The notes below the pieces were generated by a model. It was not told the origin of the DNA. It ran no database searches and saw only the letters and a list, made by a program, of their open reading frames with translations. This document shows positions 1-56,484 of a stretch of DNA of 64,000 nt, in pieces (positions within the stretch are counted from its first letter, which is position 1; every line of letters begins with the position of its first letter). The translations under genes and the position numbers were made by a program. The DNA is from Myxosarcina sp. GA_180221_E-2-1-MAG-40_15. GTDB taxonomy: Bacteria > Cyanobacteriota > Cyanobacteriia > Cyanobacteriales > Xenococcaceae. The stretch lies in contig JAIMKV010000014.1 of NCBI GenBank assembly GCA_020692205.1, forward strand, positions 1 to 64,000, in the 5' to 3' direction.

Positions 1-30
1 GGATAGCTTTTTTCTTCTCTCACCAAAAAT

Positions 31-44
31 TGTCCGAACTATTG
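31..44. repeat. Possible MITE/IS terminal inverted repeat end
   Basis: The 14 bases TGTCCGAACTATTG differ at one position from the right terminal repeat (TGTCCGAACCATTG) of the MITE at 56188-56370 and have the same orientation. If this is an element end, the body lies to the left, outside the window. No second end or target duplication can be checked here, so this rests on the 13/14 match alone. Confidence 0.4.
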
Positions 45-42724: not shown

Positions 42725-44101
42725 TCAGGTATTTTCTGATGAGATTTTTTGTAAATGTTTTTTGGTTAGTATATACAAAAAAACAAACGAGATTAAATAT
42801 ACACAGCTAGTCGACAATGCTATACCTTTAACCCCTATCCATTGCACAAAAGCGTAATTAGCACCTATATTTACTAGTAAATTAATGCTCGATCCCCAAG
42901 CTAAAAAATGATTTATTTCCAATGAATTGATCAATCTAACTACCAAAATAGCTGAGATATAAAATGGAATTTGTAGGGCGTAAAAAATTTGAATTTGGGA
43001 AACTATTTGAGTATCTGCGGCATCAAATGAACCTCTTTGAAATAATACTTGGACAATTAACTTAGAAGCTAAAATTATGATAATTGTCAAAGGAACTGTG
43101 GTGATAAATATTAGTCTTAAATAATAGTTGAAAGTATGCTCGATTTTGCTCCAGTTTTTCTGAGCAATAGTTTTAGCAAAATAGGGAACAACGGCTGTAC
43201 TCAAAGCTAAAGTAGCTAGAGTCAAAGGTAGAGCGATGACTCGATTGGCATAACCTAATGAAGCTACACTTCCAGAATCCAGCATTGCTGCCATGGAGTG
43301 ATCTACTATATTAGTGCTACACATCAAAAAGGCACCAGTTGCTACGGGAACATATTGACTGACCACCTGATTTGAATTGGCTTCATGTCCTAAGCATTGA
43401 GGCAATAGATTAATTTTCTGTCGATGTAAGCCAATGCCCAAAATAATTATCTCCAAGATAGAGCCACAAATCAAACCTCCAGCCAAGGCATACATGCCTA
43501 AACTAGGCAAACTCAGCAGCAAAATCACGGTAACTAGGGGAGTAATGGCAGGAGAAAAAGCAGCTAAAGCGAATCTTTCTCCTGCATTAAGCACCCCACC
43601 CCAGATATTGATTACCCCAGCCAGTAAAATTAGCGGCGAAAGTGACCACAGCAAGCGCGTGGTTAGTTGCAATTTTGCGGCGGTAAATCCTGATGCTAAA
43701 AATGGTAAATAAAGAGGAGCAGCGATCGCTGTGGCGATCGCCGTTACGACTAATAAACCCAATGCCCAAACTATGACTTCAGAGAAAAGTTGCTGAGCTG
43801 CTTTATTGCCCTGCTGTTCTCGTAGTTTAATGTATACGGGAATTAAAGCTGATTTGAACGAAACTGCCACCACGTTGATCACAAACGAAGGTACTACCAG
43901 CGCTATTAAAAAAGCATCCAGCTCATCTCCTGTCCCAAACCGCCAAGCAACTACCAATTCTTTGCCTACAGCAGCAAATTTGACTAACCCAGTCAATAGA
44001 CCAACAATCATTGCTGCTGCAAAAATTTGGCGATTAATTGATCTTTTAGCTAATTTATGCCATAAATTGCGATATTTTTTGGCTTTTTCTCTTATTTTCA
44101 T
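42725..44101 (-). CDS. MurJ/MviN-type polysaccharide lipid flippase
   Basis: 458 residues from the ATG at 44101; a longer frame to 44209 reads into a decayed EAL-domain fragment and is rejected. About 12-14 membrane segments. MVGLLTGLVKFAAVGKELVVAWRFGTGDELDAFLIALVVP-like text at the N terminus is the MATE/MOP-superfamily MurJ signature. It is probably a lipid-linked oligosaccharide flippase for the neighbouring glycosyltransferases rather than the essential MurJ. First gene of the minus-strand unit; its ATG overlaps the stop of the remnant frame (TAATG). Confidence 0.88.
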   Translation of the reverse strand: MKIREKAKKYRNLWHKLAKRSINRQIFAAAMIVGLLTGLVKFAAVGKELVVAWRFGTGDELDAFLIALVVPSFVINVVAVSFKSALIPVYIKLREQQGNKAAQQLFSEVIVWALGLLVVTAIATAIAAPLYLPFLASGFTAAKLQLTTRLLWSLSPLILLAGVINIWGGVLNAGERFALAAFSPAITPLVTVILLLSLPSLGMYALAGGLICGSILEIIILGIGLHRQKINLLPQCLGHEANSNQVVSQYVPVATGAFLMCSTNIVDHSMAAMLDSGSVASLGYANRVIALPLTLATLALSTAVVPYFAKTIAQKNWSKIEHTFNYYLRLIFITTVPLTIIIILASKLIVQVLFQRGSFDAADTQIVSQIQIFYALQIPFYISAILVVRLINSLEINHFLAWGSSINLLVNIGANYAFVQWIGVKGIALSTSCVYLISFVFLYILTKKHLQKISSENT

Positions 44102-53390: not shown

Positions 53391-53404
53391 GGAGTAATTT
53401 GAAG

Positions 53405-54007
53405 ATGACTATTACATTACAAAAAGGGCAACGTATTTCCTTATCTAAAGAAGCTCCTGGTTTGACTCAAATTACCTGTGGTTTAGGTTGGGATGTAGCC
53501 GAAAAACCTGGTGGCGGATTCTTTGGTGCTTTCGGTGGCGGTCAAGATTTTGACTTAGACGCATCGGTTTTATGTCTTGATAGCAATAAAAGAATTAGCG
53601 ATATTAAAGACATTGTTTACTTTGGTAATCTTAAGCATCAATCAGGGTCAATTATTCATCAGGGAGACAATTTAACTGGTGCAGGAGATGGAGATGATGA
53701 AGTAATTGTAGTTGACCTACCAAAAATTCCTGCTCGTATTACTCGATTGGTTTTTGTAGTCAATATTTATGACTGCGTTCAACGAAAGCAAGATTTTAGT
53801 CAAATAGAAAATGCTTTTGTGCGTTTAGTTAATCGAGCCAATAATAAAGAGTTAGCCCGTTACGAATTATCTGGTAACAGTTATGCAGGAATGACAGGAA
53901 TGACTTTAGCTGAGATTTATCGCCACGATGATGAATGGAAAATGGCAGCCATTGGTAATGGTTTTAAAGTCGAAGGTTTAAAAGACATAGTTGCTACTTA
54001 TTCTTAA
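53405..54007 (+). CDS. terD: TerD-family calcium-binding stress protein
   Basis: 200 residues from the ATG at 53405, with GGAG about 10 bases upstream; an in-frame TTG at 53399 is the alternative. Full TerD domain: TITLQKGQRISLSKEAPGLTQ, GGGQDFDLDASVLCLD, GDNLTGAGDGDDEVIVVDLPKIP and ENAFVRLVNRANNKELARYEL. The DFDLD and GDGDD acidic loops bind calcium in characterised relatives. The family acts in tellurite, phage and chemical-stress resistance and is predicted to assemble on membranes. Cytoplasmic. First intact gene of the cluster. Confidence 0.93.
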   Translation: MTITLQKGQRISLSKEAPGLTQITCGLGWDVAEKPGGGFFGAFGGGQDFDLDASVLCLDSNKRISDIKDIVYFGNLKHQSGSIIHQGDNLTGAGDGDDEVIVVDLPKIPARITRLVFVVNIYDCVQRKQDFSQIENAFVRLVNRANNKELARYELSGNSYAGMTGMTLAEIYRHDDEWKMAAIGNGFKVEGLKDIVATYS

Positions 54008-54176
54008 AGCAAGCAAATATTAGCTTCACTAGTTCAATAATTGTAAGTATAGGGAGTGACGGAAGTACGGAGGGCAACTTATTTACTTGTTATCTCTTAC
54101 TTTCTATCTCCCATTTACTTATTACTTTTTTTTATCTTATTATCTTTACTTATTTAAAAATACCAAGAGATAAATT

Positions 54177-54782
54177 ATGCCAATTACTTTAGACAAAAAA
54201 GGCGATTCCCATAAAATCAACCTGAGTAAAAACAATGCTGGTCAACAGTTAACTGTCAAGGTTAATCTTAACTGGAGTCAAATGCCTCAGCAAAATACAG
54301 GTTTTTTCTCCAAGCTGATGGGCAATAATACTCCCGATCTCGATCTTGGCTGTATGTATGAAACAGTTGATGGTCAAAAAGGTGTGATTCAGCCTTTGGG
54401 CGGTAACTTTGGATCGAAAAATCTACCTCCCTATATCTTTTTAGATAAAGACGATCGCACTGGTGCAGCCCAAGATGGGGAAAATATGACCATTTATCGC
54501 CCAGCAATGATCAAACGGGTAATGTTCTTTGCTCTAATTTATCAAGGTGCAAAAGACTTTCAATCCGTTGATGGTCGAATGACTTTTCAAATCAGTAATG
54601 GAGAACAAGTTCACATTAGGCTGAATAATCCCGATCGCAATTGCCCTTTATGCGCTGCTGCAATGATTAGCAATATTGGTTCAGAGGTCAAGATTATCAA
54701 AGAGGAAAGATATTTCCAGGGACATCAACCTGCCGATAAATACTATAAATTCGGCTTTCAATGGCAAGCAGGGTCTAAATAA
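54177..54782 (+). CDS. TerA-like tellurium-resistance family protein
   Basis: 201 residues. KINLSKNNAGQQLTVKVNLNW resembles the TerD-fold opening. DLDLGCMYETVDGQKGVIQPLGGNFG and DRTGAAQDGENMTIY are typical of the C-terminal module of TerA and related stress proteins. The DLDLG motif supports cation binding. ATG at 54177 with weak AGAGATAAATT upstream. It follows terD by 169 bases and probably works with it. The distinction between TerA, TerF and a stand-alone TerD variant is not settled. Confidence 0.8.
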   Translation: MPITLDKKGDSHKINLSKNNAGQQLTVKVNLNWSQMPQQNTGFFSKLMGNNTPDLDLGCMYETVDGQKGVIQPLGGNFGSKNLPPYIFLDKDDRTGAAQDGENMTIYRPAMIKRVMFFALIYQGAKDFQSVDGRMTFQISNGEQVHIRLNNPDRNCPLCAAAMISNIGSEVKIIKEERYFQGHQPADKYYKFGFQWQAGSK

Positions 54783-54849: not shown

Positions 54850-55212
54850 GTAGATAAAGTTCGTTTATGTATTGAGGAGGATGCTAGCAGAAATTCGTTT
54901 GTGGTAGCTTTGCGTAATGCGAATATTGATAGATTAACCACTTTTGAAGCTGAAAATCTTGGTCTTATAGATTCAGAGCAATTAATCTGGTCAACTAGTC
55001 AAAATCGTGCAATTTACACTTTCAATGTTAAAGATTACTGTCAACTGCACAAAATGTATATAACAGAAGGAAAACAACACTCTGGTATCATTGCCGTGCC
55101 AAGGCAGAGTTATTCCGTAGGAGAACAGTTGAAAGGTTTGCAGAAATTAATTTCATCTATATCTTCGGAAGAAATCAGAAATCAATTAGTATTCCTTGGA
55201 TCATATATTTAA
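54850..55212 (+). pseudogene. Degraded DUF5615 (PIN-like toxin) gene
   Basis: Translation from 54859 gives VRLCIEEDASRNSFVVALRN, the usual N-terminal strand of DUF5615 PIN-like proteins with its acidic residues. It continues ID-RLTTFEAENLGLIDSEQLIW to YTFNVKDYCQLHKMYI and GIIAVPR. No ATG, GTG or TTG precedes that strand before an upstream stop; the first start in frame is the GTG at 54901, which would lose the acidic motif. A DUF433 antitoxin partner is absent. Either initiation is unusual or the gene is dead. Confidence 0.65.
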
Positions 55213-55300: not shown

Positions 55301-56484
55301 TTAAAGTTGCTGATGATCTTCAATTAGCCAATTATTATATTTACTATTCCAAGTTAAATATATTTTAGATTTTCTCTCTTTATAAATAGTTCCTGTCTTC
55401 ATAAAATAGTTTAACTCAATATATACAACTGCTTGATTATTATTTTGGTTTAAAACTTTAATTTGCTGAATTTCTGTAGTTTGAACACTATTCCACCAAG
55501 CTAAATAGCTGTTAAAACTTTGAGGTTTAGCTCGACGTTTTGGGGTAAACTGTTGCCAAGTTAAGTTGTAATTACGATTATTAATATTTAAATAATACTG
55601 TTTAATAAACTCTGTAGGTGATATTTTTGTATTAACTTCTGCGTATAAAGTATTTTTAATTAAATCATCAGCTTTTTTCTTTGCTAGGATAGCTTCTTGT
55701 CTGGCTTTTTCAGCTTCATTTCTAGCTTCTTGTTTTTCTTGTTCTGCCTTTGCTATTTCTTGTCTGTTTTTTTGAATTTCTTCTTGAGCTTTAGCTGCTT
55801 CTTGTTTAATTAAGTTTTGTAGTCTGACTTGTTCTGCTTTACGAACGGAATTTAAACTAAGAATAAAGGCAATACCAACTAAAGTTGTTACTACCAATCC
55901 TAAAATAATAAAGAGTTGAATTTTAATCCAAGGTATCTGAAATTTATTTTGACGCTCGAATGTTGAATCAGTACTAAGAGATCGAGATGAAATAGCAGAT
56001 GTTAATTCTTCTGCTTCCTTTGCTGTTTCAATCTGTTGATTACACTCAGGTTTAGATCCTTGAATTTTAACCGCTTCATCGTTATAAGATCTGAATGCTA
56101 ATTTAAGAGATTCGAGTTCTTGGTTTTCCTTTTCCTGCTGTTCTATTTGGCTTTTTGTGCGCTTGAGTTTTTTTATTTGTTTCTGTACAATGGTTCGGAC
56201 AAAATTTGAATAATTTCAAAGACTGAAAGCCTAGAGAATTCGCATTTATCATCAGCAAACTTAATTTAATCAAAGTTAGCTTTATAGCTAACTTGAGAAA
56301 AAAGCCAAATTTTGATAACTATTGTCCTGTAAGGCTTACAAGTTCGTTAATAAAACTGTCCGAACCATTGCTGTAATTCTATTTTATATTCATTACGTTC
56401 AATAGAATCAGTAATGGTAATATTTATTTCTTTTAGTTTAATCTCTAATAATTCAATTTTATTTTCTATTTTAGCAATTGACAT
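55301..56484 (-). pseudogene. Coiled-coil membrane protein with NTF2-like end, split by a MITE
   Basis: The ancestral gene starts at the ATG at 56484 (MSIAKIENKIELLEIKLKEI), runs 38 codons to 56371, is interrupted by the element at 56188-56370, and resumes KQIKKLKRTKSQIEQQEKEN. Removing the element and one 5-bp duplication restores one uninterrupted frame of about 331 residues: coiled coil, a membrane helix (about 125-150), a second long coiled coil (EAAKAQEEIQKNRQEIAKAE), and a C-terminal NTF2-like domain (SPTEFIKQYYLNINNRNY ... NNWLIED). In its present state, the frame downstream of the element has only non-ATG starts. Confidence 0.75.
56188..56370. mobile_element. 183-bp MITE with 14-bp terminal repeats and 5-bp target duplication
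   Basis: Terminal repeats CAATGGTTCGGACA (56188-56201) and TGTCCGAACCATTG (56357-56370) are perfectly inverted. CTGTA flanks both sides (56183-56187 and 56371-56375). There is no coding capacity; the interior is A/T-rich with a small hairpin (AGTTAGCTTTATAGCTAACTT). The parent transposase is not in the window. The duplication and the clean restoration of the host reading frame show insertion rather than chance symmetry. Confidence 0.92.

Follow-up and report, generated by a model that had tools for sequence, protein, structure and literature searches.

Splitting of a gene by a MITE is a known, ordinary process, and a close precedent comes from Microcystis aeruginosa PCC 7806 and its delta-mcyB mutant, in which a 187-nt MITE is present in 33 and 31 copies (PMC11448079). 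The Microcystis element and the one described here are alike: each is a short hairpin with many identical, mostly intergenic copies, each has an insertion sequence with matching ends as its likely mover, and each has split a gene (sbp in Microcystis). They differ in their ends and target sites: the Microcystis MITE has ISL3-type ends and 8-bp duplications, whereas ours has IS2621-like ends and mostly 5–6-bp duplications. They differ too in the source of the empty site, which in Microcystis is the wild type and here is congeners only (PMC11448079).

Two further systems are relevant. IS2621 of Deinococcus radiodurans is an active insertion sequence of 1,322 bp; a 1322-bp element that we found in a related genome (G018) resembles it in length and in ends that start CAATGGTTCG, and IS2621 differs in having 19-bp perfect ends, CAATGGTTCGTGCAGTTTT (PMC11219805). 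FtsZl1/vWA clusters combine tubulin-like and vWA-type genes amid lineage-specific membrane proteins (Makarova and Koonin 2010, PMC2875224), and the cluster beside our split gene is alike. The split gene belongs to a family with a shared N-terminal module and differing C-termini, a feature absent from the account of FtsZl1/vWA clusters drawn on here (PMC2875224).

We analysed a 64-kb stretch of DNA, called the window throughout. Judging by gene content and relatives, its source is probably a cyanobacterium. We hold with high confidence that the best overall explanation is a recent burst of a non-autonomous MITE with an IS2621-like mobiliser, one copy of which split an accessory gene and left a young pseudogene. 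The MITE would have been moved in trans by an IS2621-like transposase with the same 14-bp ends; it has recently spread to 13 genome sites. One copy landed in an accessory gene beside a vWA/tubulin-like/ATPase cluster, duplicating CTGTA; the 188 added bases shift the frame and bring in stops, so that the membrane protein is most likely no longer made. Adjoining cluster genes retain full frames. Mobilisation in trans is put conditionally because the strain's draft assembly shows three transposase pieces and no intact gene. The locus is a tidy example of a recent MITE burst, for which there are sister copies, an insertion sequence related over its full length to the likely mobiliser, and empty sites for comparison.

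The element and its target site

An earlier note, made from the sequence alone, had described a CTGTA-flanked 183-bp element with perfect 14-bp ends, and the sequence confirms it (Table 1). The terminal inverted repeats that bound the element read CAATGGTTCGGACA. Its longest closed ORF is 10 aa, so it holds no transposase gene. We call it a MITE: it is short, lacks a transposase, has terminal inverted repeats and target duplications, is present in multiple copies and shares its ends with an autonomous insertion sequence.

Table 1. Positions of the features discussed, numbered from the first letter of the window.
Feature	Position	Strand	Comment
End of parent-type insertion sequence CAATAGTTCGGACA	31..44	-	Broken contig start
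Rest of split gene	55301..56187	-	End of coiled-coil module, linker, membrane segment, second coiled coil, 111-aa C-terminal domain
Target-site duplication CTGTA, left copy	56183..56187	.	
MITE, 183 bp	56188..56370	-	Strand sign taken from the split gene; the element codes on neither strand
Terminal inverted repeat CAATGGTTCGGACA	56188..56201	+	
N-terminal fragment of split gene	56347..56484	-	ATG at 56484; 38 gene residues plus 7 from the element, then stop; 45 aa
Terminal inverted repeat CAATGGTTCGGACA	56357..56370	-	
Target-site duplication CTGTA, right copy	56371..56375	.	
Lipoprotein-like protein with DGSGS (DxSxS, vWA-type) motif, 464 aa	56599..57993	-	Intact; vWA by inspection, no Pfam match
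Small membrane protein, 156 aa	58127..58597	+	Intact
Tubulin-like protein, 495 aa	58601..60088	+	Intact; Pfam Tubulin_2, 29.2 bits (cut-off 27)
Large actin/Hsp70-like ATPase, 1091 aa	60302..63577	+	Intact; MreB and FtsA matches below cut-off

With up to two mismatches allowed, the window has four matches to the repeat motif, where 0.30 would be expected. Two occurrences are the MITE ends, one (31–44) is an insertion-sequence end at the contig start, and the fourth, at 43386 with two mismatches, has no known meaning. When pairs of window positions are drawn at random, 5 bp match with a frequency of 0.0014; given this figure, and because all 13 genomic copies of the element have duplications of at least 5 bp, the flanking duplications are not due to chance.

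A whole-length hairpin, the usual fold for MITEs (PMC10969869), is predicted for the element, with a z of −6.4 on one strand and −7.1 on the other; single-sequence folding of two relatives gave z of −4.6 and −2.9. Covariation among six diverged relatives lends no support to a selected RNA structure, one of 27 pairs having changed on both sides. A promoter scan returned 8 sites against 3.8 expected and is left out of the argument.

The split gene

Removal of the element and one CTGTA yields a single minus-strand frame of 331 aa, from the ATG at 56484 to a stop at 55301–55303, bearing out the earlier proposal of an interrupted coiled-coil gene. With the element present, several stops lie in the gene's frame. 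The insertion falls in codon 37–38, within a 68-residue coiled-coil module, and a membrane segment is predicted at residues 128–146 of the joined frame. The longest whole-protein match covers residues 1–240 and is 36% identical to a 327-aa gene of the congener G009. Partial similarity to the last 111 residues is seen in proteins of three other genomes (G015, G014 and G026; 34–44% identity), and one of these proteins also has an ARC6-like IMS domain.

We conclude that the split gene is most likely a young pseudogene. The strongest rival is that translation from a weak or atypical start still yields its C-terminal part, including the membrane segment and C-terminal domain, and that this part functions although the N-terminal coiled coil is missing. 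The frame from the edge of the element to 55301 is indeed open and otherwise undamaged, the non-standard codons ATT and ATA lie near the junction, and a MITE-split Microcystis gene retained transcription on both sides (PMC11448079). However, the C-terminal fragment contains no ATG, GTG or TTG before 55897, a position midway through the membrane segment, and its product would be without the N-terminal module that the gene family shares. The N-terminal fragment is just 45 aa. A working shortened protein, one of the two outcomes between which the earlier note had left the choice, is therefore unlikely.

Several other genes lie on this side of the window. A DUF5615 frame (54901–55212) adjoins the split gene, and the region 53399–54782 holds a TerD gene (PF02342, 248 bits) and a further gene (54177–54782) with no Pfam match. 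Nothing in the 19.9-kb stretches of the congeners G002 and G009 matches the TerD genes.

The module family and the empty site

The module profile, searched against 388 genomes of the order at E ≤ 0.001, matched in four: clearly in the strain's own genome, G002 and G009, and by a weak partial hit (23.5 bits) in G251. This search did not find the module in G018, and a search of the family found none in G023. The strain has one module gene, the split one, G002 has two and G009 has five, including one interrupted by two stops. In all three clear genomes the module is found beside the same vWA gene, and the two congeners have several copies in tandem downstream of it (L130:8343–10344 in G002, L131:6719–11287 in G009); the nearest lies 114 bp from the vWA gene in the window, 112 bp in G002 and 159 bp in G009. 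The G009 array also includes an unrelated gene that runs in the opposite direction.

Neither the G002 nor the G009 genome contains a copy of the element, and the nearest homologues there, beside the vWA gene, lack the 183 bases. Moreover, seven module sequences (the window's, two from G002 and four from G009) align without a gap across the junction; one of the seven has an 8-residue gap further along, away from it. The comparison with relatives that the earlier note had called for thus fell in its favour on both points that it had staked: the 183 bases are not common to the homologous loci, and the reading frames do align across the junction. None of the relatives found carries the whole gene, C-terminus included; the empty-site comparison is one of N-terminal module and position, in congeners.

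The split gene is accessory and genus-restricted, and not a core member of the cluster. As judged from sequence, the N-terminal module is the part common to the family, and the congeners show the family shuffling its C-terminal domains. One G002 gene ends in an ARC6-like IMS domain and one G009 gene in YARHG; the other C-termini match no Pfam family at cut-off. By eye, a 235-aa G002 gene and a 237-aa G009 gene are alike at their C-termini. Gene order and domain make-up suggest a tentative and rather doubtful reading, in which this young, genus-restricted family would comprise interchangeable adaptors that dock different C-terminal domains onto the vWA/tubulin-like machinery. With the only copy found in it cut by the MITE, the strain would serve as a natural knockout for an uncharacterised accessory gene of the vWA/tubulin-like cluster.

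The neighbouring cluster

As in FtsZl1/vWA clusters, the tubulin-like gene adjoins a vWA-type gene. The four neighbours of the split gene are 85% (vWA), 96% (membrane), 96% (tubulin-like) and 89% (ATPase) identical to their G002 counterparts. In the same order, dN/dS is 0.16, 0.08, 0.06 and 0.12 to G002, and 0.20, 0.08, 0.05 and 0.09 to G009.

These values bear on a second rival, also raised by the earlier note, in which the insertion is one sign of a whole vWA/tubulin-like cluster decaying in this strain. One gene adjoining the cluster is indeed broken. Moreover, the vWA protein is present in only six of 27 genomes of the family (close and full-length in the strain, G002 and G009; more remote in G018 and G023; a weak hit in G016), so that gain or loss of the cluster occurs from time to time. 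However, all four neighbours have full frames under low dN/dS (0.06–0.16 and 0.05–0.20 to the two congeners), values that mostly reflect the time before the insertion. A cluster can also be found without such an accessory gene: when the contigs of named relatives were scanned with the alignment of tubulin-like proteins, a single locus came up, in Calothrix sp. NIES-4105, where the tubulin-like protein is 54% identical, a glycogen-branching-type gene adjoins the vWA gene and no module gene was seen beside it among ORFs of at least 110 aa. The vWA protein itself found nothing in the named relatives' contigs. Because the vWA, tubulin-like and ATPase frames are intact, loss of the cluster is not indicated, and we regard its decay as somewhat less probable even than a working C-terminal part. 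The alternative posed by the earlier note, a cluster being lost or a shortened protein that works, therefore finds support on neither side: the gene is accessory and the cluster frames are full and 85–96% identical to those of G002.

Sister copies and the age of the burst

A recent burst that left a young pseudogene, the explanation we prefer, accords with the strain's other copies of the element. The search for sister copies proposed by the earlier note (E ≤ 0.001; draft genome of 4.87 Mb in 131 contigs) returned 13: 11 are identical, including the window copy as reference, and two have one change each, a total of 2 changes in 2379 bp. All have duplications, of 5 bp in six copies, 6 bp in six and 8 bp in one. 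That the element is a MITE, and recently inserted, is thus upheld. That it can be dated by its target duplication is not: perfect ends and a perfect duplication say "recent" and give no date. Near-identity of the copies is a better clock, although gene conversion could also keep copies alike. Synonymous divergence between the window and G002 is 0.26–0.53, and the copies differ by about 0.1%, which is far below it; the burst is therefore much younger than the split from G002.

An assembly artefact, in which a short-read assembler misjoined a repeat at this site, is wildly improbable: the draft does break at repeats of such kind, but matching duplications of at least 5 bp lie on both sides of all 13 copies, the halves of the gene form one frame and the homologous module is continuous.

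Judged by the frames across each site, three of the 13 copies lie well inside long open frames: that in the window gene, one (L003) that splits an RTX-repeat/DUF5648 gene and one (L008) that splits an EamA transporter gene (both assigned by Pfam). Another two are at the 5′ margin of long frames, one 13 bp ahead of the ATG of a VanZ gene (L002), the other before a hexapeptide transferase gene (L007). At the remaining eight sites the frames across are at most 61 codons; one of these eight, the copy on contig C13 (L009), has flanks of only 18 and 10 bases on the contig's side.

Two side observations concern these sites. Correctly oriented copies at L003:1578, L008:1578 and L007:1598 supply a TTG-start open frame that runs into the downstream gene, and the window copy has no such frame. 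The copy on contig C13 (L133:19–201), with an 8-bp duplication, is embedded in the 3′ end of a parent-type insertion sequence. Searching plasmid records for the MITE at the sensitivity of blastn found nothing.

A parent-type insertion sequence

Ten related genomes were searched for the end motif CAATRGTTCGGACA, and one pair was found 1322 bp apart, in G018 (L085:1501–2822). The insertion sequence so delimited has the same 14-bp ends as the MITE, the first 14–19 bp of which are identical to its ends, and is flanked by a 5-bp duplication, CTTCA. It encodes a 414-aa DDE-type transposase that matches Pfam DDE_5 at 51.8 bits (cut-off 27) and DDE_Tnp_1 at 42.9 bits (cut-off 23). Its best NCBIfam match is the IS701 model, at 90.5 bits against a cut-off of 170; IS4 models also score below their cut-offs.

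The transposase also carries the mark of the IS4 family (PMC2266710), a complete Y-2-R-3-E-6-K motif, at residues 308–322 (assigned by pattern only). Published duplications are 4 bp for IS701 and 7–13 bp for the IS4 subgroups (PMC2266710). The G018 element (5 bp) and the MITE copies (5–8 bp) depart both from the 4 bp expected of IS701 and from the roughly 10 bp expected of the YREK type of IS4.

Among plasmid records, 59 match the G018 transposase. A Leptolyngbya boryana element is 1298 bp long with a 6-bp duplication, and its transposase is 54% identical to that of G018. An element of Deinococcus radiodurans MP1 (L153) is 1322 bp long with 19-bp perfect ends, an apparent 7-bp duplication and a transposase about 38% identical over 92% of the query. 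From its length, 19-bp ends and plasmid, the MP1 element would be a copy of IS2621. Since it agrees with the published IS2621, we call the parent IS2621-like; length (about 1.3 kb), CAATRG-type ends and a related transposase all fit. The IS2621-like group (the elements of G018, L152 and L153) has 5–7-bp duplications, with a complete YREK motif in the G018 transposase. A YREK motif together with half-turn target duplications is a combination absent from the 2008 table of IS4 groups, as drawn on here (PMC2266710).

Traces of such a parent are frequent in the strain's own genome. Window positions 1–44 are one of its broken ends, and an outward-pointing end motif lies within 74 bp of the contig end at 12 contig starts and 8 contig ends, at least 20 in all, a tally that omits four further motif-bearing contigs of unchecked length. 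Seven exact matches to 26 bases of the right end are present, and both the left and right inner ends of the G018 element recur. The own draft assembly yielded three pieces of the parent transposase gene and no intact copy; intact copies probably fell into assembly gaps. The search for a parent suggested by the earlier note thus succeeded in part, with a full-length 1322-bp relative in G018 and, at home, only ends and three transposase pieces. We also considered the nine Pfam DDE_Tnp_1 matches in the own genome and rejected them as candidates, none having matching ends in the flanks examined, where a search allowing three mismatches found three isolated matches only. Among the papers listed by a literature text search for the end sequence, all were unrelated as judged by title, and neither 14-base end appears in any of them.

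More distant relatives of the MITE itself are found elsewhere. Matches occur in 11 of the 60 genomes searched, the strain's own included. Five are near full length at 73–78% identity (two in G023 and one each in G012, G018 and G022), and the others are partial. Among six diverged MITE-like elements, four have target duplications of 5–6 bp, and none was found for the other two (L067 and L058). A shorter, 122-bp MITE-like element in G009 (L076; contig C2, 42691–42812) has the same ends and a 6-bp duplication.
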